From Roseomonas gilardii subsp. gilardii (GTDB lineage: Bacteria; Pseudomonadota; Alphaproteobacteria; Acetobacterales; Acetobacteraceae): DNA of 64,000 nucleotides. The DNA lies in contig NZ_CP095554.1 in the NCBI RefSeq assembly GCF_023078375.1, forward strand, positions 3,154,501-3,218,500, given 5' to 3'. The position numbers and the translations under genes were made by a program. The notes under the pieces are model-generated. The model was given only the letters and a program-made list of their open reading frames with translations, searched no databases and was not told the DNA's origin. Below, one piece after another: positions 1 to 16,940 of this stretch; within the stretch, counting starts at the first letter, position 1, and the number at the start of each line of letters is the position of its first letter.

Positions 1-641
1 CGGTTATAGGACAGGTTGTCGAACACCTGCTCCTGCCGGTCGTGATCCTTGGTGATGGCGAAGGCCATCAACTGGTCCAGCGACAAGCCGCCCTGGCGAT
101 AGACCTGCATCAGCTTCGGGCTGACCGCGCCGAGACGCATCCGCTGGCGGACGACATGCGGAGTCACGCCGAACCGGGCGGCAATCTCTTCCGCGCCCCA
201 TCCACGATTGTCCGCCAACTCCCGGAACCGCTCATACTGGTCGGCGGGATGCATCGCCTCGCGGGTGACGTTCTCGTCAAGCGAGATTTCTGCCGCATCG
301 TTCTCGGTATCCAGAACACAACGGATCGGTTCGGATTTCTTGATCTGCTTGCGCTTCACGCGCAGCATTTGCGCCAGCCTCCGGCCTTCGCCGATGGTCA
401 CGAAGTAGCTTCCGGTCGGTTCGCCGTCCGTGTTCGTCTCCGGCTCCACCACCAGATTTTGCAGCATCCCCTTGGCGGCGATGCTGGCTGCCAGCGCCTC
501 GATATGGGCTTCGCTGTGCGGGGTCTTGCGGGCATTGCGGGGCGACTTCTTGAGTTTCGACAGCGGCAAGGACAGCACCGCGCCGTTTTCTGCGGCGGGG
601 ACGTCGGAAACCGTGGCGGTCGTTTCGATAGTGTCGGTCAT
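1..641 (-). CDS. ParB/RepB/Spo0J-like partition protein, N-terminal part (runs off window)
   Basis: Translating the minus strand from the ATG at 641 gives an uninterrupted frame to the window edge (213 codons), so the C-terminus is missing. Residues about 20-110 carry a ParB-type N-terminal domain: a 'SKLKKSPRNARK' entry, the 'IGEGRRLAQML' signature (GEGRR form of the ParB box) and 'DENVTREAMHPADQ'. A helix-turn-helix-like stretch follows ('AARFGVTPHVVRQRMRLG'). Known relatives bind DNA and CTP in partition, but plasmid and island copies of this length are often accessory regulators. No ParA is visible here. Such a gene beside defence genes suggests a plasmid-derived or integrative element. 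The family call is firm; the role is not. Confidence 0.85.
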   Translation of the reverse strand, partial: MTDTIETTATVSDVPAAENGAVLSLPLSKLKKSPRNARKTPHSEAHIEALAASIAAKGMLQNLVVEPETNTDGEPTGSYFVTIGEGRRLAQMLRVKRKQIKKSEPIRCVLDTENDAAEISLDENVTREAMHPADQYERFRELADNRGWGAEEIAARFGVTPHVVRQRMRLGAVSPKLMQVYRQGGLSLDQLMAFAITKDHDRQEQVFDNLSYN

Positions 642-990
642 GGTCTTGATCCTTTGGCTTGGGTTTCGCGCAGCGAAGCGCCGCGCTGAAACCCTGCCCG
701 TCGGCGAGACCGGGGGGTGCAAGGAGCAAGGGCGGCCGGGACGGAGGGGGATCACCCGGCCTGCACAAGCGGATCGAAATCATGACTGAGAGTGTGAAAC
801 ACGCATCCGCGCGGAAGGCTGGGGAGACCGTCCCGGTCGAGCGTCAGCGATCCCTTGCGCCGCGCCAGGGGGCAGCGCCCCCAAGCAATTAGCCCGGCAT
901 GAGCGCGAGCAGGCGCCGGGCACGAGGACCGGATCAGGATGGATAAAGATCAAAACCTGAAAGCCATGCAGCCTGATCGCCGCGCCGCCT
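642..990. other. Non-coding stretch upstream of the ParB-like gene
   Basis: This 349-base stretch separates two minus-strand genes. Short frames on both strands have no recognisable content, no good ribosome site and Arg/Pro-rich composition typical of shadow frames. It probably holds the promoter of the ParB-like gene, but I see no convincing -35/-10 pair, repeat or terminator. Confidence 0.4.
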
Positions 991-1617
991 CTATACTTTC
1001 GGGTCAGCGTGACCCAGTTCAACCGCCTTGCGACGTTGGGCGGTCGTCAACGCACTCCAAAACCGATGAACGCGCGCAGTCGGCATTTGTCTGAGATCGT
1101 CGATATGTTGGGCGCGGCGAAGCTCGATCTGGAAGAACGACGGGTGATGATCGATGTTGAAGGCCTGAAGCTTCCAAAGCACGACGGCGGCGTATTTCGG
1201 CGTGAGCTTCTTGTTCTTGCGATAGTAATCCAGAGCCCCCGACAGGATGGGATTGTTCTCTTTCGCGGCAAGCTGTTCGAGTGTGCGGATGCAGGATTCC
1301 AACTGCATCTGTTGGGTCAGCTTGGTGAGGTGACGCTTCGCCTCGGCTGGCGACAGGCGCCGCCCTTTCTCCATGACCGCCACGTCGAATTGAAGTATGC
1401 AGTGGGAGCCGACCCAAAGCGTCGCATCGGTATAGTGATTGGCGATCTCGAAGTGGTAGCGAAGGTCTTGCTGGCCGCAGAGTTCACAGGTTTCGACGGG
1501 TTGCTCGTGATCGACTGTGTTGTCGGTGAAGGACCACTCGTCGAACGCAGCCGGCAGGTTTCCCGCCACTGAAAGCGGAAGAATACTGTCACGAACCCGT
1601 TGCGTGTATCCGCCCAT
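991..1617 (-). CDS. Hypothetical protein with a Cys/His cluster (possible zinc site)
   Basis: This is a 208-residue soluble protein that I do not recognise. Residues about 42-75 contain 'CELCGQQDLRYHF' and then 'GSHC', a spacing compatible with a small zinc-binding treble or ribbon. The rest is helical and basic ('KRHLTKLTQQMQ', 'LTPKYAAVVLWKLQ'), with no signal peptide or membrane segment. The ATG at 1617 is the only sensible start. It is divergent to the fic gene across about 100 bases with repeated ATTTAAG motifs. Proteins of this look are common cargo of plasmids and integrative elements, but that is an impression, not a family assignment. Confidence 0.7.
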   Translation of the reverse strand: MGGYTQRVRDSILPLSVAGNLPAAFDEWSFTDNTVDHEQPVETCELCGQQDLRYHFEIANHYTDATLWVGSHCILQFDVAVMEKGRRLSPAEAKRHLTKLTQQMQLESCIRTLEQLAAKENNPILSGALDYYRKNKKLTPKYAAVVLWKLQAFNIDHHPSFFQIELRRAQHIDDLRQMPTARVHRFWSALTTAQRRKAVELGHADPKV

Positions 1618-1716
1618 GATGGTGCCGCCCGTTATTTAAGACCGCTTAACTTAGCCCAACCTCTATTTAAGCCAAGTGGCAATTGCTTAAATAACGCTGC
1701 ACCCACATAATGGGGC
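1618..1716. promoter_or_regulatory. Divergent promoter region with three ATTTAAG-type repeats
   Basis: The spacer is AT-rich in a GC-rich setting. GTTATTTAAG at 1631-1640 and its exact inverse CTTAAATAAC at 1686-1695 bracket a third, direct copy TATTTAAG at 1664-1671. The arrangement resembles operator half-sites. The Fic protein encoded downstream has a C-terminal winged-helix domain and could bind here. This is inference from position and symmetry; no promoter elements are certain. Confidence 0.5.
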
Positions 1717-2898
1717 ATGTCCGAATCAGCTTCCAACCTCCGGCTAGGCCGCTTTGTCGAGACCTCGATTGCGGGCGAAATGGTGCGCGCCTTCGTGCCG
1801 CCTCCGCTGCCGCCGAAACCGCCGATCGACGTGCTGGATCTTCTGGAGCGGCTCAGTCTGGCGGAACGTGCCTTGGGGCGACTGGACGGCATCACCATGC
1901 TGCTGCCGCGTCAGGAACTGTTCCTCTACATGTATGTGAGGAAAGAAGCGGTGCTTTCATCCCAGATCGAGGGCACGCAATCGACTCTTTCGGATTTGCT
2001 CCGCTTCGAGACCGAGGCGCAGGCGGGACAGCCGATCGACGATATCCGCGAAGTGTCGAACTATGTCGATGCGATGATGTATGGGCTGGAGCGCCTGGAA
2101 GGCTTGCCGCTTTCGCTGCGTCTGATCCGCGAGATGCACGAACGCTTGCTGCAAAGCGGGCGTGGCGGCACGAAAAATCCCGGCGAGTTTCGGCGGTCTC
2201 AGAACTGGATCGGTGGCTCACGTCCAGGCAACGCGCTTTTTGTGCCGCCGCCGCCGACCGAGATGGATGGTTGTCTCGATGCGCTTGAGCGATTCATGCA
2301 CGAGGACGATTCGCGTTTGCCCGCCCTCATCAAGGCCGGGCTGCTGCATGTCCAGTTCGAGACCATCCACCCGTTTCTTGATGGCAACGGCAGGATCGGC
2401 CGCTTGCTGGTGACGTTGTATCTCTGCGTCAACGGTGTGCTGCGCAAGCCGCTCCTCTATTTGAGCCTGTACCTGAAAACTCATCGCGCCGATTATTACC
2501 GACTGCTTCAGGAGGTGCGCGAGCACGGGGCATGGGAAGCCTGGCTCGATTTCTTCCTCACCGGCGTGGCGGATACGGCAAATCAGGCGTTCGATGCAGC
2601 CACAAGGATTGTCGATCTGTTCAAGGAAGACCGCGAACGGATTACGACAGAGAGCGACCGGGCAGGCTCCGCGCTTCGTATCCATGATCTGTTTCAGCAG
2701 AACCCGTTCCTGACGGCCAACCAGCTCGTTCAGAAGACAGGTCTCTCAGCCCCCACGGTCAACGCTGCGCTCGCCGACCTGGAGCGGTTCGGCATCGTCG
2801 AGGAAATCACCGGGCGCAAACGGGGGCGCGTGTTCAGTTACCGGCGATATCTCGCCATCTTGAGCGAGGGAACCGACCCGCTCCCCACTGCGGCCTAA
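1717..2898 (+). CDS. Fic family protein (predicted AMPylase) with N-terminal inhibitory helix and C-terminal winged helix
   Basis: The protein has 393 residues. The Fic core motif is complete at residues 218-229, HPFLDGNGRIGR, with the catalytic His and phosphate-binding Asn/Arg. At 82-86 the sequence SQIEG, preceded by another Ser at 81, fits the inhibitory (S/T)xxxE(G/N) helix of class II Fic proteins; its Glu normally blocks ATP until relieved. The Fic_N-like part covers about 25-110. Residues about 320-375 form a winged-helix DNA-binding domain ('TANQLVQKTGLSAPTVNAAL'). The usual reaction is transfer of AMP to a protein hydroxyl; the target is unknown. Only 13 bases separate its stop from the SIR2-APAZ gene, so it probably heads that operon and may regulate it through the repeats upstream. 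Confidence 0.92.
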   Translation: MSESASNLRLGRFVETSIAGEMVRAFVPPPLPPKPPIDVLDLLERLSLAERALGRLDGITMLLPRQELFLYMYVRKEAVLSSQIEGTQSTLSDLLRFETEAQAGQPIDDIREVSNYVDAMMYGLERLEGLPLSLRLIREMHERLLQSGRGGTKNPGEFRRSQNWIGGSRPGNALFVPPPPTEMDGCLDALERFMHEDDSRLPALIKAGLLHVQFETIHPFLDGNGRIGRLLVTLYLCVNGVLRKPLLYLSLYLKTHRADYYRLLQEVREHGAWEAWLDFFLTGVADTANQAFDAATRIVDLFKEDRERITTESDRAGSALRIHDLFQQNPFLTANQLVQKTGLSAPTVNAALADLERFGIVEEITGRKRGRVFSYRRYLAILSEGTDPLPTAA

Positions 2899-2911
2899 CA
2901 AGGGGGAGACT

Positions 2912-4795
2912 GTGCCGATAAAAACTATATCCGCCGCACAATTTGCGACCGCCTTCGACCTGAGGCCCAATCTCGTGGCCTGGTTCCTAGGCGCTGGTGC
3001 ATCGGCCGCCTCCGGCATCCCGACCGGCTATGCAATGATCCGCGACTTCAAGGCGCAAATCTTTTGCCGCGAGACAAACCTGTCAAAGCGAGAGATCGAT
3101 ACGGCTGATCCAGTGTGGATCGACAGGATCGATGCCTTTTTTCGGCAAACGTCACTGTTGCCGCCTGACGGCGATCCTACGGAATATGCCAAGGCGTTCG
3201 AAGCGGTCTATCCAGAAGCCCGGCATCGCCGACAGTATATAGACGATGCGATCTCCAAGGGCACTCCCTGTTTTGGACATAAGGTGCTTGGCAGTCTTAT
3301 GGCTGCTGGCAAGGTCGATAGCGTTTTCACCACGAACTTCGATCCGCTTATCGAGGAATCGGCGCATTCGGCAAATGCGATCCTCCCGATAGACGGCCAG
3401 AACCGCCCGACTGTGGCGGCGATCGATTCCGCCGACCGTGCCATGCGGTGCCTGAATGAATCGGACTGGCCGTTGGTAGCGAAGCTCCACGGCGATTATC
3501 AGTCGATCACGATTAAGAACACGGGATCAGAACTGGAGGAACAGGACGCCCGAATGCGGCATGTGCTGGTGGAATCCGGCAAGCGCTTCGGAATGATCTT
3601 CGTCGGCTATAGTGGACGCGACGCTTCGATCATGGAGGCGCTGAACACGGTTCTGGATGGGCCGTCGCCATTTCCCAACGGGCTTTACTGGCTCACCTCG
3701 TCAGTTTCGCGCTTGCTGCCAGCAGTGATCGAATTCCTAGATCGTGCTCAAGCAGCCGGCGTGGACGTGGCCGTCGTCGAGTGCGCGACCTTCGACGAGC
3801 TGGCTGCGGATATCATCAAGATAACCGACCTGCCCCAGCCGCTTCTTGGCCGCGTGATGGCAGGGCGACCTACGCCGCGCCTCGTGCCCGTTCAGGTTCC
3901 ACATACCAAAGCCCGCGCCTTCCCGGTGCTGCGCTATTCGGCAATTCTGCTCCCATCGATGCCGACCGTAGCCAGACGCATCAGGCTGAGCCAATCAACG
4001 ACGTCGGCAGAAGTGCGCGAGATCTTCAAAGTGAAGGGATACCGAGCGACGGCAGCCGCGTTGGGGCGTGAGCTAGCGGCGTTCGGGCGGGACCAGGAAA
4101 TCCTGGATGCCTTGGCTCCGCTCGGCCCATCGCTCGCTGGCACGATCGACCTAGATCCGGTCGCCGATAGCTGGGCGGTGGGGTTGCTCTACGACACGCT
4201 TGTGCGGTCTCTCGCCCGACAGCGCCCGCTCATCCCACGCTACAGGCGTTCGGGCCATTCGCTCGTCGTTGCAACACCGCGCGATAGCGATGATCCTGAT
4301 CGAACGCGGCGTCAGCAACAAACCCTGTCCCGGCTGCGCGACGCCTACGGCACCAGTCTGTTTGGCACAGTGCCAAAGCTTGGCTTCCCGTTTCAGGAGG
4401 GTGTCCACCTCAAGCTGGAACGAGTCGATGGAAAGTGGTGGTGCGGCTTCGAGCCCTACACGTTTGTCCAGTTGCCCCGGCAAGATAGTTCCCAAACGGA
4501 CATTGCGGAGGGTCTGGTCGCCGAAGAAGCTCCGGCTGAAATGGGTATGCGAGCCGAGCGCCGAGGTGATCCTGCCGGTGACTGGCGCCGCGAGCGATGG
4601 GCTCCGCGCTATAATAGGAATTGGGCCAGCATTATTGGGGCTTGGGCACAGCTTCTAACCGAAACGGGAGGCACGACCCGAAGTGCCTTCGGGCTCGAAG
4701 AGGGCACTGGCATTGATGCCGTGTTCAAGGTGTCACCCGTCACAGGGTTCAGCCGACCATCGCATCACCATACCTACTTCGACAGGAGCAAATGA
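2912..4795 (+). CDS. SIR2-APAZ protein of a short-Argonaute (SPARSA-type) defence system
   Basis: The protein has 627 residues and starts at GTG 2912 behind AAGGGGGAG. The N-terminal SIR2 domain shows the glycine-rich NAD-binding loop (LGAGASAASGIPT, residues 26-38), TTNFD with Asn142, LHGD with His193 and a later FVGYSGRD. The C-terminal half (about 330-627) has no catalytic motif and fits an APAZ domain, the part that replaces the Argonaute N/PAZ lobes and pairs with a short Argonaute. In characterised SPARSA systems, guide-directed recognition of invading DNA switches on SIR2 hydrolysis of NAD+, stopping the infected cell. The stop overlaps the next start (ATGA at 4792-4795), so the two proteins are translationally coupled. 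Length and order match SIR2-APAZ/Ago pairs. Confidence 0.88.
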   Translation: MPIKTISAAQFATAFDLRPNLVAWFLGAGASAASGIPTGYAMIRDFKAQIFCRETNLSKREIDTADPVWIDRIDAFFRQTSLLPPDGDPTEYAKAFEAVYPEARHRRQYIDDAISKGTPCFGHKVLGSLMAAGKVDSVFTTNFDPLIEESAHSANAILPIDGQNRPTVAAIDSADRAMRCLNESDWPLVAKLHGDYQSITIKNTGSELEEQDARMRHVLVESGKRFGMIFVGYSGRDASIMEALNTVLDGPSPFPNGLYWLTSSVSRLLPAVIEFLDRAQAAGVDVAVVECATFDELAADIIKITDLPQPLLGRVMAGRPTPRLVPVQVPHTKARAFPVLRYSAILLPSMPTVARRIRLSQSTTSAEVREIFKVKGYRATAAALGRELAAFGRDQEILDALAPLGPSLAGTIDLDPVADSWAVGLLYDTLVRSLARQRPLIPRYRRSGHSLVVATPRDSDDPDRTRRQQQTLSRLRDAYGTSLFGTVPKLGFPFQEGVHLKLERVDGKWWCGFEPYTFVQLPRQDSSQTDIAEGLVAEEAPAEMGMRAERRGDPAGDWRRERWAPRYNRNWASIIGAWAQLLTETGGTTRSAFGLEEGTGIDAVFKVSPVTGFSRPSHHHTYFDRSK

Positions 4796-6241
4796 TGGCG
4801 AACCCAGCCCTCACCGAGCTGCCGCCATTCACGCTCTTGGATGAGCCAGACCTGTCGTTTTCGCCATCCGATGCCACCCAGGTAGATGTCCATCCATTGC
4901 GTGGCCTCCTGAACTTCGGGCCGTATTCGAAAGGATCGTTTAGCGGATACACCCCCGTATTCAATCGCGACGGTTGGCCCGGAGAGCGCTTTCCATCGTC
5001 GCGGTGACCTGATGAAGCTGTTGCGGGGCGTGCATCGGCCTTCCGACCGATCAGAATATGTGCCGGAATATCCCGGTTTTGAGAGCCTGTTCCGCGTGTC
5101 GCTTGATGCCGCGCCAGCGAGCGCGCACATCAAGTGGCCTGAACACCTCGACCAGTTGCCGGGCGACGGCAACGCGCAGCATCGCCTATACCTTGCAATG
5201 GATGCCGCGCTCCGCCGCCTCGACGCCGTTCGCAATGAGTTCGACGTTGTGCTGGTCCACTTTCCTGACAACTGGGACACGGCGACACGCGGAAAATTCT
5301 TTGACGCACACGATGTGCTGAAGGCTTTGGGCGCGAAGTATAATATTCCGACCCAGGTTCTGAATGATCGCGCCTTTACCTTCAGTTTTAAGGCCTCGCT
5401 CGCGTGGCGTCTTTCAACCGCACTTTATGTGAAGGCTGCGGGCACGCCATGGAAGCTCGCGCCGCTGAAGGGTGTGCCGGCGGACACCGCCTACATCGGC
5501 TTGGCTTATGCCCTGCGCGGTGACCAACAAGACGCGCATTATGTGACGTGCTGCTCGCAGGTCTTCGACATGGACGGCGGCGGAATGCAGTTCGTTGCGT
5601 TCGAGGCGCGCGACCCGGTGGCCGACGTGGCCGAAGCCCGCCGGAACCCCTTTCTAAGTCGCGACGACATGCGCGCGGTCCTTGCCCGTAGCTTGGAACT
5701 CTATCAGGGGCGCAATGGCGGCAACCTACCAAGGCGCATGGTCATTCACAAAACGACCGCGTTCAAGGAAGCTGAAATCGAGGGCGCGTTCGATGCGCTT
5801 AGCGGCGTAGCGGAAATAGAGTGCGTCGAGGTCAGTTCGGCATCGTGCTGGCGCGGCGTCTGGCTCATCAAGTCGGGCGTAGAGAAACCGCCGTCAAAAC
5901 CTTCGGGGTTTCCCGTGCCGCGCGGGACGATGGTGATCCGCACGGGCAATTCTGCCTTGATATGGGTGGCGGGCAATGCTCCCGAGGTCTCAACCAAAGG
6001 CGATTACTATCAGGGCAAGAAGAGCATTCCCCGGCCACTACAACTGATCCGTCATGCCGGCAGCGGGCCACTTGAACTCACTGCCCATGAGGCGTTGGCC
6101 CTCACGAAGATGGATTGGAATAACGACGCGCTCTACGACCCAGTACCGGTTAGCATTCGCTATTCGCAGAAACTGGCCCGCACGATAGCGAACGTCCCGG
6201 ACCTACCTCGGAATGTTTATCCTTATCGGTTGTTCATGTGA
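4792..6241 (+). pseudogene. Short prokaryotic Argonaute (MID-PIWI), interrupted by a one-base frameshift
   Basis: The first frame (ATG 4792 or 4795, ribosome site AGGAG at 4784-4788) encodes a typical short-pAgo beginning, including 'VDVHPLRGLLNFGPYS', but stops at 5007. The next frame, open through 6241, continues the protein: 'YSIATVGPESAFHRRGDL', 'VPEYPGFESLF', and the characteristic C-terminal tail 'RNVYPYRLFM'. Removing one C from the C5 run at 4952-4956 joins them into about 480 residues, the usual size for MID-PIWI Argonautes. As in other short pAgos, the expected position of the first PIWI catalytic Asp appears replaced ('AYIGLAYALR'), so the protein should bind guide and target without cutting. 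As given, only a 71-residue fragment plus a product from ATG 5012 could be made. Sequencing error and true inactivation are both possible. Confidence 0.85.
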
Positions 6242-6405
6242 TGAGGTTTCTACAAATTAGAAATGAGCCGAACCGATGGTATTGCTGAGAACTAAGTATG
6301 AAATCTGACTTAAATTATACTTCGTAAGAGACGCGCGCATTCTGCAATGCAAAGATGGCTTCGAATCGACGCCATATTATTTATCGGCCTTGGGGGAGGC
6401 ATACC
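6242..6405 (+). promoter_or_regulatory. AT-rich spacer, likely promoter of hamAB
   Basis: This is an AT-rich gap after the Argonaute stop. TATACT at 6316-6321 is a reasonable -10 element, but no matching -35 lies at the right distance. The strong ribosome site GGGGGAGG at 6392-6399 lies just before GTG 6406. No clear terminator hairpin follows the Argonaute gene, so read-through from the SPARSA operon is possible. Confidence 0.35.
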
Positions 6406-7221
6406 GTGACGACACCGAGCAATCTGAACTGGCTGGTCGATACTGGAGAGCGACAAGCAACGGCGTGTGGCCGTGAAATCGAGATATGGGAACTAAATCC
6501 GCAAGATGACGCTGAAATCCTTTCAAACTGGGCTCGGCATTTCCGCAACCACTACATCGCCGATGCTGATTTACCGTTCATGGCTGGCGGAACGGGACTC
6601 GGCAATCCCGATTATCTAAGGACCATTCTCTTTCCCGATGCGAAGGTGGCACCCGGACCGAGCCTCCGATCGGGAGATTTTGGCGAGATCGTCGTCGCCG
6701 ACTTTATCGAATATTTCCTAGGATATTGGTGCCCACGCGAGCTGCGCTACCAGGATCGCTGGAACCGAAATGACTCGACAAAGGGTTGCGATGTTATCGG
6801 GTTCAAGTTCGCGAACGAGGACAACCCCGGTCCGGCCGACGAGCTTTTTATCTTCGAGTCCAAATCTGGCATGTCTGCGTCCGGCGCGAACCGGCTCCAG
6901 GATGCGATCGATGACAGCGTAAAGGACAGACTTCGCGAGGGCATGAGCCTCAATGCGATTAAACGCCGTTTCTTCGATCGGGGCGAAATGGGCGATGCCC
7001 GAAAGGTCGAGCGCTTTCAAAACGAGGCCGACCGACCCTTTCGCCGGATCAACGGAGCGGCCGCCATTCTCGACGAGGCCGTCTTCGCCGAGACCGACAT
7101 GGCGGCGACCAACGGTGCGGCTCATTTTAACCAAGAGAATTTGCGCCTTCTGGTTATCCGCGGACCGTCATTGATGAAGCTCGTACATACGCTTTACGAG
7201 AGGGCAGCCGATGAGGCCTGA
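6406..7221 (+). CDS. hamA: HamA-like nuclease of a Hachiman defence system (DUF1837)
   Basis: The protein has 271 residues from GTG 6406, preferred because GGGGGAGG lies just upstream; an in-frame ATG at 6355 adds 17 residues but has no ribosome site. It fits the DUF1837/HamA family. The restriction-endonuclease-like core is visible as 'GDFGEIVVADFIEYF' (Glu94), 'KGCDVIGF' (Asp129) and 'ELFIFESKSG' (Glu151, Lys153), a PD-(D/E)xK arrangement. In known Hachiman systems HamA is a DNA nuclease held inactive by the helicase HamB and released on abnormal or damaged DNA, degrading DNA in the infected cell. It overlaps the helicase gene by 11 bases, as in other hamAB operons. Confidence 0.85.
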   Translation: MTTPSNLNWLVDTGERQATACGREIEIWELNPQDDAEILSNWARHFRNHYIADADLPFMAGGTGLGNPDYLRTILFPDAKVAPGPSLRSGDFGEIVVADFIEYFLGYWCPRELRYQDRWNRNDSTKGCDVIGFKFANEDNPGPADELFIFESKSGMSASGANRLQDAIDDSVKDRLREGMSLNAIKRRFFDRGEMGDARKVERFQNEADRPFRRINGAAAILDEAVFAETDMAATNGAAHFNQENLRLLVIRGPSLMKLVHTLYERAADEA

Positions 7222-9862
7222 GGCGACCGCGCTCACCATCCTATCCACCGCGCGAGCACGGGCAAAGATGCACGAATTCCGCGTCGCGCCAGCGGACTTC
7301 AATGCGTTGCCGCGCGACCCGTCGCTACTCTTCTCATTGGCAATCGGCATCTTGGGAGATGTTGCGGCCGCCGTCGCAGATACGCTCGATGTTGCAGGAG
7401 TGGCACCGGCCGTGCTTCCACAACCGCCCGGCTGGGACGAGTTGGATGAGGACCCACAAGATGTGCTACGCTTTTCCTCAGTTTTCTTCGATGCATATTT
7501 GAACGCGCAGCTCGATGCCGACTTAGACACCGAATTTTCACTCCTGTGCGCAGCGGCATACTACATCGCCGGGAATGTCGGCAGCGCGACGGTAATCATT
7601 CGGCACATGACGGAGCCGAGCCTCGACCTCGCGGGCGGGCTTGGTCATCTCGTCTACAGCATCCTCAAGAACAGCTTCGTTCCGACCGAGGCGGCCCATG
7701 CTCATCAAGGGGCGACGACTGAGCTTCTCCAGGCGCTAGCTGGCTATTTCAGCTTCGAGGCCGGGGCGGATGGCATTGCCGAAGCGTGCCGCGGAATCCG
7801 CGAGTATTTCCACCGATCCGGCTCACCGCGCGAATTGCTCTACGCCGACATTGCTGGCGCCTTGTGTGCACTCAAGCTCAGAAATTCTGCCCGGACGATC
7901 CTGCCAACAGCATCAGGCTTGGCGCCGGACGCGTGGCGCCAAGCGCTCGCGAAGTCGCATTTTCCGATCGAACTCTGGCCTGCTCAGCAGCGGATCGCGG
8001 ATGCTGGCGTGTTCGCTGGACGTTCCGTAGTCATTCAAATGCCGACCAGCGCTGGCAAGACTCGCGCCACGGAAATCATCATTCGATCGGCCTTTCTATC
8101 CGGTCGAGCACACCTTGCAGTGATCGTCGCACCCTATCGTTCGCTCTGCCACGACATCCGGGGCGACCTGGTAACGGCCTTTGCCGGTGAGAATGTGCGC
8201 CTGGACGAAGCATCAGACGCCTATCAATTCGACCTCGCGCTCGATGCGCTGCTCGCCGAAGACTCGGTGCTCATCGTGACGCCCGAAAAGCTCCTCTATA
8301 TGCTGCGCCGGGCTCCGGACCTCGCCCAGAGGATCGGTTTGGTGATCTATGACGAAGGACATCAATTCGACGGAATGACCCGGGGGCCGACCTACGAACT
8401 CCTCCTCACTTCGCTGCGCATGTCGCTACCCGCTGAAACCCAGATCATTCTCATCTCTGCCGTGATCGGCAACGCGCCGGATGTCGCTGCATGGCTGATC
8501 GGCGATGCTGATGCGGTTGTCGGCGCCGACGGTCTGCTACCGACGACGAAAAGCATCGCCTTTGCGAGCTGGCAGGATCAACGCGGGCGACTCGAATATG
8601 TGAAACCGGAGGATCCGGCCGAGCGAGAATATTTCGTGCCTCGCATTATCAGCGATATCGCTCTGCCGCTCCGCGGCAAGGAAACTGCCCAGCGCAGATT
8701 TCCGGAGAAAACCGGCGGTGACGTCGGTCTGTTCCTCGGCCTGCACGTCGTGCGCAACGGTAGCGTTGCGATCTTCTGCGGCCGAAAAGACAGCGTGACG
8801 AAGATCTGCTCGCGCGCTGTCGAAATCGTCGAGCGCGGCGTCGCCTTGGAATGGCCGATTGAAACCTCGGACGCCGCCGAGGTGGAGAAGATCCGAGCAC
8901 TTTGCGAAGTCGAGCTCGGAGCCGGCGTGTCAGCGACCCGCGCGGCAGCGCTTGGAATATTCGCCCATCACGCCGACACACCGCACGGTATCCGCCTCGC
9001 GATCGAACACGCCATGAAAGAAGGTATGGCGAAATTTGTCATTTGCACCTCGACCTTGGCGCAAGGGGTCAATTTTCCGCTAAAATATCTGATCATCACA
9101 TCGACGCGCCAAGGTGGCGAACAGATCCTGGTGCGCGACTTCCACAATCTGATGGGTCGTGCCGGTCGCGCGGGGATGCACACCGAGGGCAGTGTCATCT
9201 TCTCGACCCCGTCCATCTACGATCAGCGGCAGCAATTTCGCGGCCGATGGACGTGGGACCGCGCAACCGAACTTCTCGACGCCCGAAACTCTGAACCCTC
9301 TCGCAGCTCGATCCTGGCGTTGTTCGATGCGTATCAGCAGCGCCAACCGCCGATCGTACAAGAGCTTCCGCCCGATTGGCTCGACCTCGCGTTCGCCGAT
9401 GCCGCCCGGATAAATGAGGTGGTGGCCGCAGCGCTCGCGGCGCAACCCAATATCAGCGAACGGGAATTCCGCCGGTTCATCGAAGGTCGCGCCCGCGCTG
9501 TCCAGAATATCGCCGCTTTCCTCGTTGCCAACATAACCTTTGCCGAGGGAGAGGACGTCGCAGCGCGGATCGGCGAACTTGCGGCTAATACATTGGCTTA
9601 TCACCTCGCTGACGAGGAGACGCGGGTTCGTATCGTCGAAGTGTTTCGGTCGATCGGGGATTCGATCACGGCCAACACCGATGGCGACCAGCGCGCGCTT
9701 ATTCGACGGTCGCCCCTACCGCCTGCGGCGGTTGCAGAACTCAAAACTTGGCTGACTGAGAACCTTGAAACCTGCGACCGCAGTACAAGAGAACCGCCTG
9801 TTCGCCGAAATCTCTCCGTTGGTACTCCGTTTCACCACGTCCCGCGCGATCCAGGCGATTAG
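7211..9862 (+). CDS. hamB: HamB-like superfamily 2 helicase of a Hachiman system (C-terminus apparently frameshifted)
   Basis: The frame encodes 883 residues from ATG 7211, inside the end of hamA. The SF2 motifs are Walker A TSAGKT (279-284), 'LAVIVAPYRSL' (motif Ia), 'IVTPEKL', Walker B DEGH (381-384), motif III-like 'LISAV', and 'GRAGRAGM' in motif VI, followed by a helical C-terminal part. HamB proteins are ATP-driven helicases that hold and release HamA. The last about 30 residues, after 'TENLE' near 9769, become Arg/Pro-rich and unlike a helicase end, while another frame starting in this overlap continues with well-formed protein (9765-10328). I infer one extra base, probably in AAA 9768-9770; a repaired protein would have about 1040 residues. 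Confidence 0.85.
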   Translation: MRPEATALTILSTARARAKMHEFRVAPADFNALPRDPSLLFSLAIGILGDVAAAVADTLDVAGVAPAVLPQPPGWDELDEDPQDVLRFSSVFFDAYLNAQLDADLDTEFSLLCAAAYYIAGNVGSATVIIRHMTEPSLDLAGGLGHLVYSILKNSFVPTEAAHAHQGATTELLQALAGYFSFEAGADGIAEACRGIREYFHRSGSPRELLYADIAGALCALKLRNSARTILPTASGLAPDAWRQALAKSHFPIELWPAQQRIADAGVFAGRSVVIQMPTSAGKTRATEIIIRSAFLSGRAHLAVIVAPYRSLCHDIRGDLVTAFAGENVRLDEASDAYQFDLALDALLAEDSVLIVTPEKLLYMLRRAPDLAQRIGLVIYDEGHQFDGMTRGPTYELLLTSLRMSLPAETQIILISAVIGNAPDVAAWLIGDADAVVGADGLLPTTKSIAFASWQDQRGRLEYVKPEDPAEREYFVPRIISDIALPLRGKETAQRRFPEKTGGDVGLFLGLHVVRNGSVAIFCGRKDSVTKICSRAVEIVERGVALEWPIETSDAAEVEKIRALCEVELGAGVSATRAAALGIFAHHADTPHGIRLAIEHAMKEGMAKFVICTSTLAQGVNFPLKYLIITSTRQGGEQILVRDFHNLMGRAGRAGMHTEGSVIFSTPSIYDQRQQFRGRWTWDRATELLDARNSEPSRSSILALFDAYQQRQPPIVQELPPDWLDLAFADAARINEVVAAALAAQPNISEREFRRFIEGRARAVQNIAAFLVANITFAEGEDVAARIGELAANTLAYHLADEETRVRIVEVFRSIGDSITANTDGDQRALIRRSPLPPAAVAELKTWLTENLETCDRSTREPPVRRNLSVGTPFHHVPRDPGD

Positions 9863-10328
9863 CGATCAGAATGTAGTTCCGCGCTCTCTTGAGGAGTGGG
9901 TGGCGGGCAGATCCTATGCCGTGATCTTCGACATATTGGCTGAAGCAAGAGTTCGGGTCGGGCGTGACTATGTCACCGTCGAAGATGCTGTTGCGCTGTG
10001 CGAGAGCGGCTTCGGCTACGATGTTGCGATGATCGTTGCATCGATAGCGGACCTGACCGAGGACCTGGACGACGCACTGCACACGGACGTCAGCCTTCTG
10101 CAAAAGCAGATTAAATATGGCCTGACTGATCGCGCGGCGGTTGCGTTTCACGAGGCCGGGTTCGCGGATAGGCATGTCGCGAGCCTTCTCGGTCTTGTCT
10201 GGGGAAATGTAGTCGACCGTGGCGGCGTCCGCGCAGCTTGCCAGCAAGAGGAGATTGTGCGCGCGGTGCTCGCGCACATTCCGAGCTATTTCGTCAAGGT
10301 CGCTGCTGAGCTTGGAGGATGGGCCTAA
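9765..10328 (+). CDS. Probable displaced C-terminal segment of HamB
   Basis: This is a 187-residue frame opening with TTG inside the end of the helicase frame. It has no ribosome site and no independent motif. Its content is helical and well-formed ('LFAEISPLVLRF', 'SLEEWVAGRSYAVIFDIL', 'YGLTDRAAVAFHEAGFADR'), of the kind seen at the end of HamB and related defence helicases. Reading HamB through 'TENLE' and skipping one base gives a seamless join. The alternative is a separate small gene overlapping hamB by 98 bases, which I think less likely. Confidence 0.6.
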   Translation: MKPATAVQENRLFAEISPLVLRFTTSRAIQAISDQNVVPRSLEEWVAGRSYAVIFDILAEARVRVGRDYVTVEDAVALCESGFGYDVAMIVASIADLTEDLDDALHTDVSLLQKQIKYGLTDRAAVAFHEAGFADRHVASLLGLVWGNVVDRGGVRAACQQEEIVRAVLAHIPSYFVKVAAELGGWA

Positions 10329-10633
10329 CGCGGCCCATGCCGGTAGCTAGAGCGGAACGCTCATCTAATGACTGTGATGCAGCTCTATTTTCCCTCATTC
10401 CTATTTTGGAGGGCCATAGAGGGCTATGGAGTAGATATAGTTCTCATCGCTATCCCGCATGGCCCGCCAGATGACCCTCCCCTCCCCGCGGATCTCCATT
10501 CTCCATCCCTGCACGGCTTCGTTCGGCCTGCCGTAACGGATGTCGCGAAGCATGCCGTGCCGCCGACAAACGCTTTCCGTCAGGCCGCGTTCTTCCTGGC
10601 AGCAGAAATCCAGGACAGACAGGGAGGACAACC
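10329..10633. other. Transition between island and core genes; no certain gene
   Basis: This 305-base stretch moves from island-like composition to GC-rich core sequence. A 76-codon minus-strand frame (10401-10631, TTG start) has moderately natural composition ('QGWRMEIRGEGRVIWRAM') but no ribosome site or known family. I see no recombinase gene, transposon end or direct repeat marking a boundary. Confidence 0.35.
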
Positions 10634-11376: not shown

Positions 11377-11452
11377 TGGCGTCCCCTAGGGGATTCGAAC
11401 CCCTGTTGCCGCCGTGAGAGGGCGGTGTCCTAGGCCTCTAGACGAAGGGGAC
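11377..11452 (-). tRNA. tRNA-Glu (CTC anticodon)
   Basis: The reverse strand begins GTCCCCTTCGTCTAGAGG and ends AGGGGACGCCA. The seven-base acceptor stem GTCCCCT/AGGGGAC pairs perfectly. The anticodon stem CCGCC/GGCGG encloses loop CTCTCAC, anticodon CTC. The T arm contains GGTTCGAATCC. Discriminator G and CCA are encoded. Its 3' end points toward the defence island, the usual target orientation for integrases, although no second copy of the 3' end is seen in the window. Confidence 0.97.
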
Positions 11453-11605
11453 GTGGCCATCGGTGAGGTGGCTTCTATCGGAGCCCCGGCCGTCGATCAA
11501 GCCATCTCGGGCCGCTTATTTGCATCCCTGCCGCGCGTGGGCAGGGCTTCACGCCGCTCCCGCCCTCACGCAGCCGTGCGGGACGCCGATTCAGGCAGCC
11601 CGCCT

Positions 11606-11896
11606 TCACTCCCCTGGCCGCAGCTCGCCCAGCACCCGGCCAGAGCGCGGGTCGAGCAGCAGCACGCGCTCGCCCTGCGGCCCCTCGACCCAGATTGCCA
11701 CCCGGTCCCCCGCCCCGGCCAGGCCGCGGATGCGGGTGCCCGCCGGCTGCCCCAGCCCACCCTCGATCCTCTGGGCGGTGGACATGGCGCCGGGCGCGGC
11801 GGTGGACATGCGCTGGACGATCACCGCGATCAGCCCCACGGTGCCCGCGATAATCAGAACCCCCATGACGATGACGAGCACCTTGAGCGCGCGCAA
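11606..11896 (-). CDS. Small single-pass membrane protein (DUF6476-like)
   Basis: This is a 96-residue protein. The N-terminal transmembrane segment 'VLVIVMGVLIIAGTVGLIAV' is followed by a periplasmic part ending 'GERVLLLDPRSGRVLGELRPG', which resembles a small beta unit. It fits short conserved alphaproteobacterial proteins located next to rluD. The start is TTG 11896, because the frame has no ATG upstream. Its first bases overlap the 5' end of the divergent rluD-like gene, an unusual head-to-head arrangement. Confidence 0.7.
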   Translation of the reverse strand: MRALKVLVIVMGVLIIAGTVGLIAVIVQRMSTAAPGAMSTAQRIEGGLGQPAGTRIRGLAGAGDRVAIWVEGPQGERVLLLDPRSGRVLGELRPGE

Positions 11897-12873
11897 TCAG
11901 ACCCCCGATCTTTCCCTGGATTTCATCGCCACGCCGGAACAGGCGGGGCAGCGCCTGGACCGCGTCCTGGCGGAGGTGTCAGGGGCATTGTCGCGATCCC
12001 GTGTCAAGGCGCTGATCGAGGCCGGGCAGGCGCGGCGGGACGGCCAGCCTGTCGCCAACCCGTCCGAGGCGGTGCGTCCGGGCGGACGCTACAGCCTGCA
12101 CGTCCCGCCGCCGGAACCGGCCACGCCGCAGGCTCAGGCGATCCCCCTGACCATCCTGTACGAGGACCCGCATCTCATTGTGCTGAACAAGCCGGCCGGG
12201 CTGGTCGTGCATCCGGCGCCGGGCAACCAGGACGGGACGCTGGTGAACGCCCTCCTCGCCCATGCGGGGGAGGAGCTGACGGGCATCGGCGGGGAGAAGC
12301 GCCCCGGCATCGTCCACCGGCTGGACAAGGACACCAGCGGGGTGATGGTGGTGGCGAAGTCCGAGGCGGCACATCATGCGCTGTCGGAAGCCTTCGCCTC
12401 CCGCGATCTCGACCGCGAGTATCTGGCCCTGGTCTGGGGCTACCCTCCCCCGCAAGGGGGAGATCGAGGGCGATATCGGCCGGCATCCGATGGACCGGAA
12501 GCGCATGGCCGTGGTCACCCGGAACGGCAAGCACGCCCTCACCCGCTATGCCACGGAACAGGCCTGGGCGGGCGCCTGTGCCCTGCTCCGCTGCCGACTG
12601 GCGACCGGACGGACCCATCAGATCCGGGTCCATCTCTCGCACAAGGGGCACCCGCTGGTGGGGGACCCGGTCTATCTCCGCCGCACCCCCGCCTCCGCCA
12701 AAGCCCTCGGCGCGGAAACACGGGAAGCCCTGCTGGCCTTTCCGCGGCAGGCCTTGCACGCCGCGACTCTGGGCTTCCGCCACCCCATCACCGGAGAGGC
12801 GCTGAGCTTCGCCGCCCCGCTGCCACCGGACATGGCCGCGCTGCTGGATATGTTGAAGCGCGACGGAGAGTAA
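11865..12873 (+). pseudogene. RluA/RluD-family 23S rRNA pseudouridine synthase, frameshifted
   Basis: Residues about 20-80 form an S4 RNA-binding domain ('AGQRLDRVLAEVSGALSRSR'). The catalytic motif HRLDKDTSGVMVV carries the nucleophilic Asp. The frame then derails after 'REYLALVWG', and the next frame continues correctly: 'KGEIEGDIGRHPMDRKRM', 'RTHQIRVHLSHKGHPLVGD', to the stop at 12873. One extra C in the CCC or CCCCC runs at 12443-12451 explains it. RluD-type enzymes modify helix 69 of 23S rRNA and help ribosome assembly, so a true loss would be surprising; a sequence error is likely. The start is ATG 11865 or 11871. A clear terminator follows directly. Confidence 0.85.
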
Positions 12874-12874
12874 C

Positions 12875-12896
12875 CCGACTGTGACAGTCGGTTTTT
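12875..12896 (+). terminator. Rho-independent terminator after the rluD-like gene
   Basis: There is a perfect seven-base stem, CCGACTG (12875-12881) with CAGTCGG (12885-12891), a TGA loop and five T residues, two bases after the stop codon. This is the cleanest classical terminator in this part of the window and isolates rpoH from upstream transcription. Confidence 0.85.
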
Positions 12897-15541: not shown

Positions 15542-16836
15542 TCATTCCTCCCGGGGGTCTGGCCCCCGGGTCGCGCCCTGTGCCGGCTCCACCGCCTGGG
15601 GCCGGTTCTCCGCGGCGGCACGGTAGACGGTCTCCATCAGGCGCATGTCCCGCAGCCCTTCCTCGCCCGGCGTGTGCGGCGTCTCGTCGGCCAGGACGCG
15701 CTCGGAGAAATGGTCGATCTCCAGCGCGAACTGGTTCCTGTGCCGGATCTTGCGCTCCTCCTGCCCGACGATGTTGCCGGACTTGCGGGACACGATCATG
15801 CGCTGCCCGACATAGGAGAAGGCATCCGGCATCTCCACGCTGCCGCCCTCGAAATGCAGCCGCAGCGTCTTGTCGTTGAAGGCGCCATAGGAGGCGAGGC
15901 AGTTCGCCATCACGCCGGAGGGGAAGCGCAGGCCGAAGGCGACGCTCTCCTCCACCTCCTTCCAGCGCTCGTCGCCCGGCGGGCTGTAGAGCCGCGCGCT
16001 GATCTCCACCGGCTCCTCCCCGGTGATGTAGCGCGTGGCGTTGAGGCAGTAGAGCCCGATATCGGGCATCGCCCCTCCCCGGCCAGGGCCTTGGAATAGC
16101 GCCATTGCGGCCCCGGCCCGTTGGCCTGGACATTGGTCGCCTCGATGAAGCGCAGCCTGCCCAGTTCGCCGGACCGCACCAGCGCGATCGCCGCGCGGTT
16201 ATAGGGTTCGTACTGGCAGCGATAGGCCACCATCAGCCTGACGCCAGCCCTGGCGCAGGCATCGACCATCTCCCCCGCCTCGGCGGAACTGGTCGCCATC
16301 GGCTTCTCGCAGAGCACATGCTTGCCGATCGCCGCCGCGCGCAGGGTGTATTCGCGGTGCATGCCGTTGGGCAGGACGATATAGACCGCCTTCACCGCCG
16401 GCAGGTCGCGCAGCGTCTCGAAATCCGCGTAGCCGAGCACCGAGGTTTCCGGGATGCCGTATTGCCGCGCCACCGCGCTGCCCTTCTCCGGGCTGCCCGT
16501 CACCAGCGCCGCCGGATAGGAGCTCTTGCACCCGGCGAAGGCGGGAAGGATCTCCTCCAGGCTCAGCCGCCCCAGCGCCACGATGGCATAGCCCAGGCGC
16601 TCCCCGGGTGCGCGCGGCGCGGGCGGTGGCGGCGTGCGCGGCTCGGCCTCGCTGCGCCAGTTCGGGAAGACCACCCTGCCGTTCTGCACCCGCCCGACAT
16701 CCATCTCGGACGGGGCCGGATAGCCCGGCGCGCCATTGGCCGCCGCATGGGCCGGGCCGAGAGCGAGGCCCATGGCGGACAGGCCGGAGACACGGATCAG
16801 GCCGCGCCGCGTGGCGGAGAAGCTGTCGTCGGGCAT
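15542..16836 (-). pseudogene. Gfo/Idh/MocA-family (GFOR-like) exported oxidoreductase, frameshifted
   Basis: The frame starts at ATG 16836 with a twin-arginine-like signal ('SATRRGLIRVSGLSAMGLAL', then 'AHAA'). The Rossmann part reads 'LGYAIVALGRLSLEEILPAF', 'VLPNGMHREYTLRAAAIGKH' and the family motif CEKPMA. After 'QWRYSKALAG' the frame is lost, and another continues with 'GAMPDIGLYCLNATRYITGE' to the stop at 15542. A missing base in the C-runs at 16072-16080 (GGGGAGGGG on the coding strand) explains it. Relatives include periplasmic glucose-fructose oxidoreductase with tightly bound NADP. The substrate is unknown. A repaired protein has about 430 residues. Confidence 0.82.
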
Positions 16837-16940
16837 GGCGGGGGGAAGCTCCGGTTCCGTCCCGCCCTCAACGCCGCGCCCCGCCGGGGGTTGAGGGCGG
16901 CACACGGCCTCGTGCCCGCCCCTCCCCGGAATCGCGCGGA

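Follow-up and report, generated by a model that had tools for sequence, protein, structure and literature searches.

How cells keep short Argonaute systems, which are suicide devices, quiet between infections is, to our knowledge, not well understood. The question is raised by a stretch of 64,000 nt from Roseomonas gilardii subsp. gilardii (contig NZ_CP095554.1, forward strand 3,154,501 to 3,218,500; hereafter the window, numbered from its first letter), in which genes for a Fic protein, for the two subunits of a SPARSA system (SIR2-APAZ and a short prokaryotic Argonaute, pAgo) and for the Hachiman proteins HamA and HamB stand back to back. On meeting matching DNA, SPARSA depletes the NAD+ of the cell. 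Why should a Fic gene stand at the head of such a system? Our explanation, to which we give a probability of about 0.6, is that the block is defence cargo of an element integrated at a tRNA-Ser gene, and that fic, sir2-apaz and ago are transcribed together under the control of a three-box operator contributed by fic. In this view Fic apparently arrived with a switch of its own, which by now may control the Argonaute pair as well. The explanation builds on the anatomy of the block, the borders of the element, the unoccupied site of a relative, a Fic-SIR2 junction common to several loci and a box array conserved with Fic; binding of Fic to the boxes, co-transcription, control of SPARSA and all protein activities are predictions.

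The boxes lie directly in front of fic. The sequence TATTTAAG occurs in three exact copies in the window, all between 1633 and 1693 (100 shuffles gave 0.00). Relatives were taken from a scan of species-representative genomes, which yielded 48 loci with a SIR2-APAZ relative (one, L092, at only 27%, and some partial); in nine of them (L045-L050, L084, L085, L088) a Fic gene of at least 89% identity lies just upstream. When up to one mismatch per box was allowed over the 120 bases preceding Fic, eight of nine Fic-SPARSA loci (the window, L045, L047, L048, L050, L084, L085 and L088) showed three boxes, spaced 31 and 22 bases, and the ninth (L049) two boxes and a third with an inserted base; L046, whose Fic start is missing, was left out of the count. 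Shuffled upstream regions contained 0.05 to 0.18 boxes on average, with a maximum of 2.

The array also accompanies Fic genes that stand alone. Three boxes are found in six of eight such loci (L094-L097 in genomes, L123-L126 on plasmids), L097 and L126 having two. Five of the six keep the same box order; L124 has an inverted middle box and distances of 29 and 24 bases. All three boxes of L095 read TAATTAAG, a joint change that is the pattern expected of binding sites. At 65-70% Fic identity, three boxes are retained by L100 and L101, with distances of 30 and 21 bases. That the boxes might be a component of SPARSA was ruled out, since the 300 bases upstream of SIR2 contain no box core in any of the 35 SPARSA loci without a close Fic (these are the 48 loci minus the nine with a close Fic and minus L060, L083, L087 and L092; L077, with a different SoFic-like gene ~440 bp upstream of SPARSA, is included). 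Because the boxes are kept with stand-alone Fic and lie upstream of SIR2 in none of these 35 loci, we regard the array as a property of Fic and its close relatives.

In having conserved palindromic boxes ahead of its gene, Fic resembles CccR, a Fic toxin of Yersinia pseudotuberculosis with a C-terminal helix-turn-helix (HTH) domain, which the accessible part of PMC9755527 describes as repressing its own gene via a palindrome with a 26-base spacer. Compared by that description, the two proteins have in common the Fic domain, the C-terminal HTH and an S-x-x-x-E-G inhibitory motif, and the two genes a long-spaced palindrome upstream; the sequence and spacing of the boxes differ, and the array here would also govern a second defence system. 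CccR being a known autorepressor with this domain combination, we infer that its capture placed SPARSA under a switch belonging to Fic. The "Fic regulator" named in the original prediction, made from the window's letters, was a reasonable surmise in view of the winged HTH and the conserved box array upstream, and its regulatory role is putative.

Fic is joined to SPARSA in a constant manner. In the window and in all nine Fic-bearing relatives the GTG start of SIR2 lies 11-13 bases past the Fic stop, and the sequence at this start is similar throughout (GTGCCGATAAAAACTAT), one base differing in L049. A tree of 43 SIR2 proteins contains nine Fic-bearing rows (window included; L088 was too short and was left out), of which eight form one group with the Fic-less L075 at a support of 100/98; L084 falls outside, and the Fic label requires three changes. 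An independent second gain of Fic in L084 was rejected on windowed identity. L084 is a recombinant: its DNA is 82-97% identical to the window from 1650 to ~3750, that is, over Fic and the SIR2 half, and 62-83% identical beyond, through the APAZ half and pAgo, which derive from another lineage (L084:8808-13329). The Fic-SIR2 junction was thus kept while the APAZ half and pAgo were replaced. Most simply, Fic and SPARSA would have been joined once; L084 would later have exchanged its APAZ half and pAgo, and L075 would have lost the association. A single origin of the junction is preferred, not proven, and Fic appears not to be a chance neighbour of SPARSA.

The identity of the proteins is as the original prediction had it. 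A PADLOC profile search matches all five strongly: SoFic on the open reading frame (ORF) 1717-2898 (2.1e-127), Aga_SIR2-PNTD1-PNTD2 on 2912-4795 (1.9e-222, with the SIR2-PNTD profile covering residues 42-615), pAgo_I on 5012-6241 (1.2e-189, profile 64-457 of 457), HamA on 6355-7221 (3.3e-107) and HamB on 7211-9862 (E=0, 1059 bits, profile 1-851 of 1037), a second part of HamB being matched on 9765-10325 (2.4e-38, profile 852-1035). Pfam, at E up to 0.01, lists Fic_N, Fic, HTH_24 (the C-terminal winged HTH), SIR2_2, HamA, DEAD and Helicase_C on the block, and no family for the pAgo ORF. Read directly in Fic, and both intact, are HPFLDGNGR and SSQIEG, which we take to be the Fic motif and the class II inhibitory motif. 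SIR2-APAZ and the pAgo ORF align with the solved pair of PDB 8in8, presumably the Geobacter SPARSA (4.7e-57 with the SIR2 subunit and 2.6e-85 with pAgo), and the two genes overlap by ATGA as in other SPARSA pairs. The SIR2 domain, fused to APAZ, has its Asn142 and His193 aligned with N142 and H186 of GsSir2 in that pair, the catalytic residues according to the accessible part of PMC10781750. HamA and HamB stand side by side as in known Hachiman systems; HamB aligns with solved HamB at 6.3e-42, HamA with solved HamA weakly (0.004). They account for the PD-(D/E)xK protein overlapping a superfamily 2 (SF2) helicase that had been noticed, the reading frames sharing 11 bp. A lower GC content had been noticed as well, and 1-kb windows give 0.53-0.62 in the block vs 0.64-0.72 to its right.

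Fic itself is called SoFic-like only. It matches the SoFic profile, aligns with SoFic structures across residues 30-385 and contains the Fic motif, the N-terminal inhibitory motif and a C-terminal winged domain, with the class names used as explained in the accessible part of PMC12249575; its score with the NCBI equivalog, however, is 179 bits, far below the cut-off of 550. SoFic is a single-protein anti-phage Fic, whereas the Fic protein here heads a SPARSA pair, from which a 13-bp gap separates it, leaving no space for a small AS1-like antitoxin gene.

By comparison with related genomes, the block is the right-end defence cargo of a putative conjugative-type element of ~45.5 kb that extends from a tRNA-Ser gene to about window position 10469. 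The nearest relatives, G011 and G006, have ~90% DNA identity in the flanks, and their matches stop at genome position 3119428 and resume at ~3164964 (window 10464). In G011 the site is empty, the two flank matches meeting with a six-base overlap, CCGCCA; at the same tRNA-Ser site G006 has 1.7 kb of other DNA (G006:C2:19557-21296). The left border coincides exactly with the 3' end of tRNA-Ser (anticodon GGA, 3119338-3119428), 35 kb outside the window; this end, and the breaks in two genes described below, were missed in the original prediction, which had also taken tRNA-Glu as a border of the block. The latter cannot stand: the element ends ~0.9 kb before tRNA-Glu. As an integration site tRNA-Glu was rejected for the same reason, although its 3' end faces the block; DNA with this tRNA gene adjoins rluD in G011, G006 and G003 too. 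The comparison of flanks that had been suggested as a check found the empty site, and did not find the adverse outcome, the same genes in all relatives. SIR2-APAZ has no match in 13 of 14 other genomes of the genus and one distant match (26%) in the fourteenth.

The element shows profile matches to a large serine recombinase at its left end, a DUF3363 relaxase, a TraG-type coupling protein, TrbI, CagX protein, TrbL, TrbE-like and TrbB-like ATPases, a RepA-type initiator and a ParB-like protein. With recombinase, attachment (att) core repeat, relaxase, coupling protein, type IV secretion system genes and empty site all present, it is probably an integrative and conjugative element. It resembles Trb-type elements with a serine recombinase, a likeness of general type that is drawn from profiles, apart from any named reference element, and differs from them in its insertion at tRNA-Ser(GGA). 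Relatives mark the same right end: similarity to the window reaches 10469, the end of the core, in L050 (Shinella daejeonensis), with different DNA beyond, and in L048 (Agaricicola taiwanensis), where the contig itself ends, and L083 begins to diverge shortly before the core. Related recombinases were found in five of six searched genomes with a Fic-led SPARSA, the best matches being 96% (host of L047), 86% (L050), 86% (L048), 76% (L045) and 52% (L049); the host of L085 gave no match.

Table 1. Features at the right end of the element and in the adjoining flank (window coordinates).
Feature	Position	Strand	Remarks
ParB-like gene, 5' part	1-755	-	Belongs to the element; ORF continues to window -1386
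208-aa protein, function not assigned	991-1617	-	Divergent from Fic; conserved in related elements
Three-box array, proposed operator	1633-1693		Boxes TATTTAAG at 1633-1640 (+), 1664-1671 (+), 1686-1693 (-)
SoFic-like class II Fic AMP-transferase, C-terminal winged HTH	1717-2898	+	Profiles, structure alignment, motifs
SIR2-APAZ, NADase subunit of SPARSA	2912-4795	+	GTG start behind GGGGGAG, 13 bp past Fic stop
Short pAgo (MID-PIWI) of SPARSA	4792-6241	+	ATGA overlap with SIR2-APAZ stop; frame broken near 4950-4962
HamA (DUF1837), Hachiman nuclease	6355-7221	+	PADLOC, Pfam, structure alignment
HamB SF2 helicase, Hachiman	7211-10328	+	Frame broken near 9773; ORFs 7211-9862 and 9765-10328
Right terminus of element	10340-10469		att core CCGCCA at 10464-10469
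tRNA-Glu, outside element, in conserved flank	11377-11452	-	

The block is itself composite. HamAB lies downstream of SPARSA in four of the 48 loci besides the window (L048, L050, L083, L085). L045, L046, L047 and L049 resemble the window in DNA sequence as far as the pAgo stop (6239-6241), and in L048, L050 and L083 the resemblance extends to 10469 and in L085 to 10423, which makes HamAB a separable sub-cassette. A Gemmobacter plasmid has HamAB and no SPARSA annotated beside it. When the whole block was searched against 72,556 plasmid records, two matched, neither along more than 80% of the query; judged from the positions, one record holds HamAB and the other Fic. Hosts belonging to several families carry the Fic-SPARSA cargo, with a SIR2 identity of 91-97%; the SIR2-APAZ of Novosphingobium capsulatum is 97% identical to that of the window. 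Xanthobacter tagetidis and N. capsulatum are among the relatives with an intact copy, and Roseibium denhamense is among the hosts of a Fic-less SPARSA.

The SIR2-APAZ start differs between loci with and without a close Fic. All nine Fic-led relatives have GTG, like the window, while the codon one place before the position of this GTG is ATC in 20, ATT in 2 and ATA in 1 of the 35 loci without a close Fic, each of these 23 having a Shine-Dalgarno-like stretch just upstream. ATC is also found in L075, which belongs to the Fic-led clade and lacks Fic. In eight of the 35 (L057, L061, L066, L070, L074, L077, L079 and L091, the last with a partial match and CAT as the codon in question) there is no ATG, GTG or TTG from the upstream in-frame stop to codon 10, and in L061, L079 and L091 the first canonical start lies only past the NAD-binding GAGAS motif. 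When the 22 ATC/ATT loci (L051-L059, L061-L063, L065, L066, L070, L074, L075, L077, L079, L082, L086, L090) were aligned, the ribosome-site stretch was conserved (G at -13 in 22/22) and the spacer varied; the stretch lies ~7 bases before the ATC and ~25 before an ATG at codon 6. Since ATC or ATT was the criterion by which these loci were chosen, independent evidence comes from the ribosome site alone. In the record of a Rhizobium ruizarguesonis plasmid, the annotated start lies 120 bases inside the match. Two counts argue for ordinary starts: 13 of the 35 loci, including 10 of the 20 with ATC, have the codon-6 ATG, and in 11 a canonical codon precedes the position of the window's start by 3 to 9 bases. 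Altogether, these data suggest that many Fic-less SPARSA NADases may start on AUC, the Fic-led lineage using GTG instead.

By the proposed mechanism, the Fic protein, a class II AMP-transferase that is auto-inhibited and ends in a winged HTH, would bind its own operator as a dimer and keep the operon low. An invader that disturbs, inactivates, sequesters, consumes or titrates Fic would derepress the operon; Fic may then act as a toxin through AMPylation, and the level of SPARSA would rise; guided to invading DNA by small RNA, SPARSA would destroy NAD+. Hachiman, preceded by a gap of 113 bp and perhaps transcribed from its own promoter, would separately sense damaged DNA; HamAB is described as detecting such DNA, with HamA as the nuclease, in the accessible part of PMC12278908. 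The start-codon data allow a bolder version, which we regard as doubtful: the suicide enzyme would have swapped its safety catch, losing an AUC brake to GTG with a strong ribosome site and gaining the three-box operator of Fic in its place, so that loss of Fic to an invader would turn on a second, Argonaute-guided suicide system. The codon-6 ATG, which could be the start in those 13 relatives, counts against this version.

Several observations weigh against control of SPARSA by a Fic-borne operator. Two of the four Fic genes at 65-70% identity lack the array (L098 has one box, L099 none), and distant Fic genes (L102-L122) show no box core, L120 excepted. No sigma-70-like promoter was found near the boxes. 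The C-terminal domain of SoFic is described as controlling toxicity, and DNA binding goes unmentioned, in the accessible part of PMC12249575. The link of Fic with SPARSA is largely that of one clade and could have been inherited without function; moreover, a pAgo tree (42 rows) is less resolved and requires four changes of the Fic label. Finally, this copy has breaks in two of its five genes.

The span originally given for the block, 1717 to 10328, is correct in extent, and the six coding sequences counted in it are not all clean. From its start at 4792, pAgo runs for 71 codons to a stop, and the remaining ORF of 409 residues lies in a different frame; the protein is uninterrupted (483 aa) in all seven relatives compared, as is HamB (1039 aa) in all four compared, and each gene is two bases shorter here than in the relatives. 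Such uninterrupted reading rules out programmed frameshifting. The breaks represent either assembly error or recent decay, the two being indistinguishable here, and the copy in this assembly may be inactive. It is quite possible, if somewhat short of an even chance, that the block is a dead relic with SPARSA and Hachiman both disabled by recent frameshifts, a reading compatible with an operon under Fic control. The background of roughly one split gene per 20 kb predicts ~0.4 in the ~8.4 kb of coding DNA of the block, where two are observed. Conserved genes outside the element are, however, also split here: 4/36 flank genes with G011 as reference and 4/29 with G006 (10 and 11 absent or partly matched genes set aside), and 6/103 in a larger sample (68 set aside). 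The corresponding figures for relatives are 1/36 in G011 and 3/39 in G006 (1 and 6 set aside), and 2/91 in G011 for the larger sample (47 set aside). Several of the counted splits fall at doubtful gene starts, and the differences between genomes are small. A clear case, counted in the larger sample, is rluD, adjoining the element, two parts of which match the same profiles in different frames (window 11463-12884 and 12376-12873). By eye, a Gfo/Idh-like ORF at 15910-16905 also appears frame-shifted.

Could the block be an ordinary defence island, in which three unrelated systems gathered on one element and the boxes serve Fic alone, SPARSA being merely read through? Fic does travel without SPARSA on many plasmids, 166 records matching Fic and 3 SIR2-APAZ at E 1e-60, and the neighbours that follow pAgo are often of other defence kinds, namely TmtA in L084 (13447-18267) and a defence-type reverse transcriptase in L054 (13359-14843) and L086 (12142-13659); the same scan gave no match for this slot in L047, L058, L063 and L075, nor for L076. 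An island of unrelated genes does not, however, account for the distance of 11-13 bp between Fic and SIR2 in nine of nine relatives with the junction, nor for the GTG common to those nine and unlike the start at loci without a close Fic, and we consider it unlikely. Tight linkage of fic and the SPARSA genes, together with intact catalytic and inhibitory motifs, would also suit a Fic protein that acts biochemically, AMPylating SPARSA or a regulator, with the layout serving stoichiometry and not transcriptional control; SPARSA as a Fic substrate is without direct support, however, and the winged HTH and the retention of boxes where close Fic relatives stand alone make this improbable. A different regulator encoded on the element might instead occupy the boxes, for example a ParB-family protein or the product of the 208-aa divergent gene, which begins ~100 bp away on the opposite strand. 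In L124 the stand-alone Fic is indeed followed directly by annotated genes for two RepB (ParB-family) proteins and a recombinase, which also tells against Fic as the binding protein; boxes are nevertheless present in L123 and L126, where no partition gene is annotated within 5 kb (the L125 record carries no annotation and is uninformative), and we give a regulator other than Fic only a slim chance. The operator borne by Fic is thus the reading we retain, and the original prediction can be said to be confirmed in its observations and partly supported in its interpretation.

If the retained reading is correct, this lineage suggests two catches for one enzyme, perhaps a weak start codon where Fic is missing and a captured, self-regulated Fic operator here. 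Stacked defence genes could then be layered circuits, beyond mere neighbours, and shared operators would offer a route to finding such couplings; what passes for a "defence island" is placed on a transferable element. Each part is known; the arrangement, with its Fic-led SPARSA operon, box array and start-codon difference, appears to be new. In the open-access literature, subscription journals lying mostly outside it, no text that we saw connects Fic with SPARSA, reports an unusual start codon for SPARSA, or describes a Fic-led SPARSA operon or the box array; one paper on Pseudomonas islands covers Hachiman, Argonaute and SoFic in its accessible part.

Some further features of the element and its relatives may be mentioned. 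The match of HTH_ParB to the ParB-like gene is marginal (23.2 vs a cut-off of 22.6 bits). The 208-aa protein has zero matches in PADLOC, Pfam and NCBIfam at E 0.01; counterparts 92-94% identical adjoin Fic in L045, L047 and L049. At the ParB end, window 633-907 repeats a segment at window -3400 to -3154 (77% alike), and the contigs of L045 and L048 end or begin in DNA similar to this repeat. Metabolic cargo was recognized by eye among the ORFs at genome 3134220-3142053: LysR and MerR regulators, molybdenum-type oxidoreductase subunits, a metallo-beta-lactamase-fold hydrolase, an isochorismatase-like protein and a major facilitator superfamily (MFS) transporter. In L056 (2035-19045) and L075 (8563-18709), a Fic-less SPARSA lies between TraG-like and TrbB-like genes of related elements. 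The near-identical Fic-SPARSA of L046 is on a contig labelled as a metagenome-assembled genome of Trueperaceae (Deinococcota), which may be misbinned. Other defence genes precede SPARSA elsewhere: Qat anti-phage genes are annotated upstream of the pair on the Rhizobium ruizarguesonis plasmid (L156:1-1142), and a reverse transcriptase-protease gene (PADLOC RT-Protease_XI) lies directly upstream in L066 (8249-9895), L090 (8266-9846) and L091 (8108-9007).

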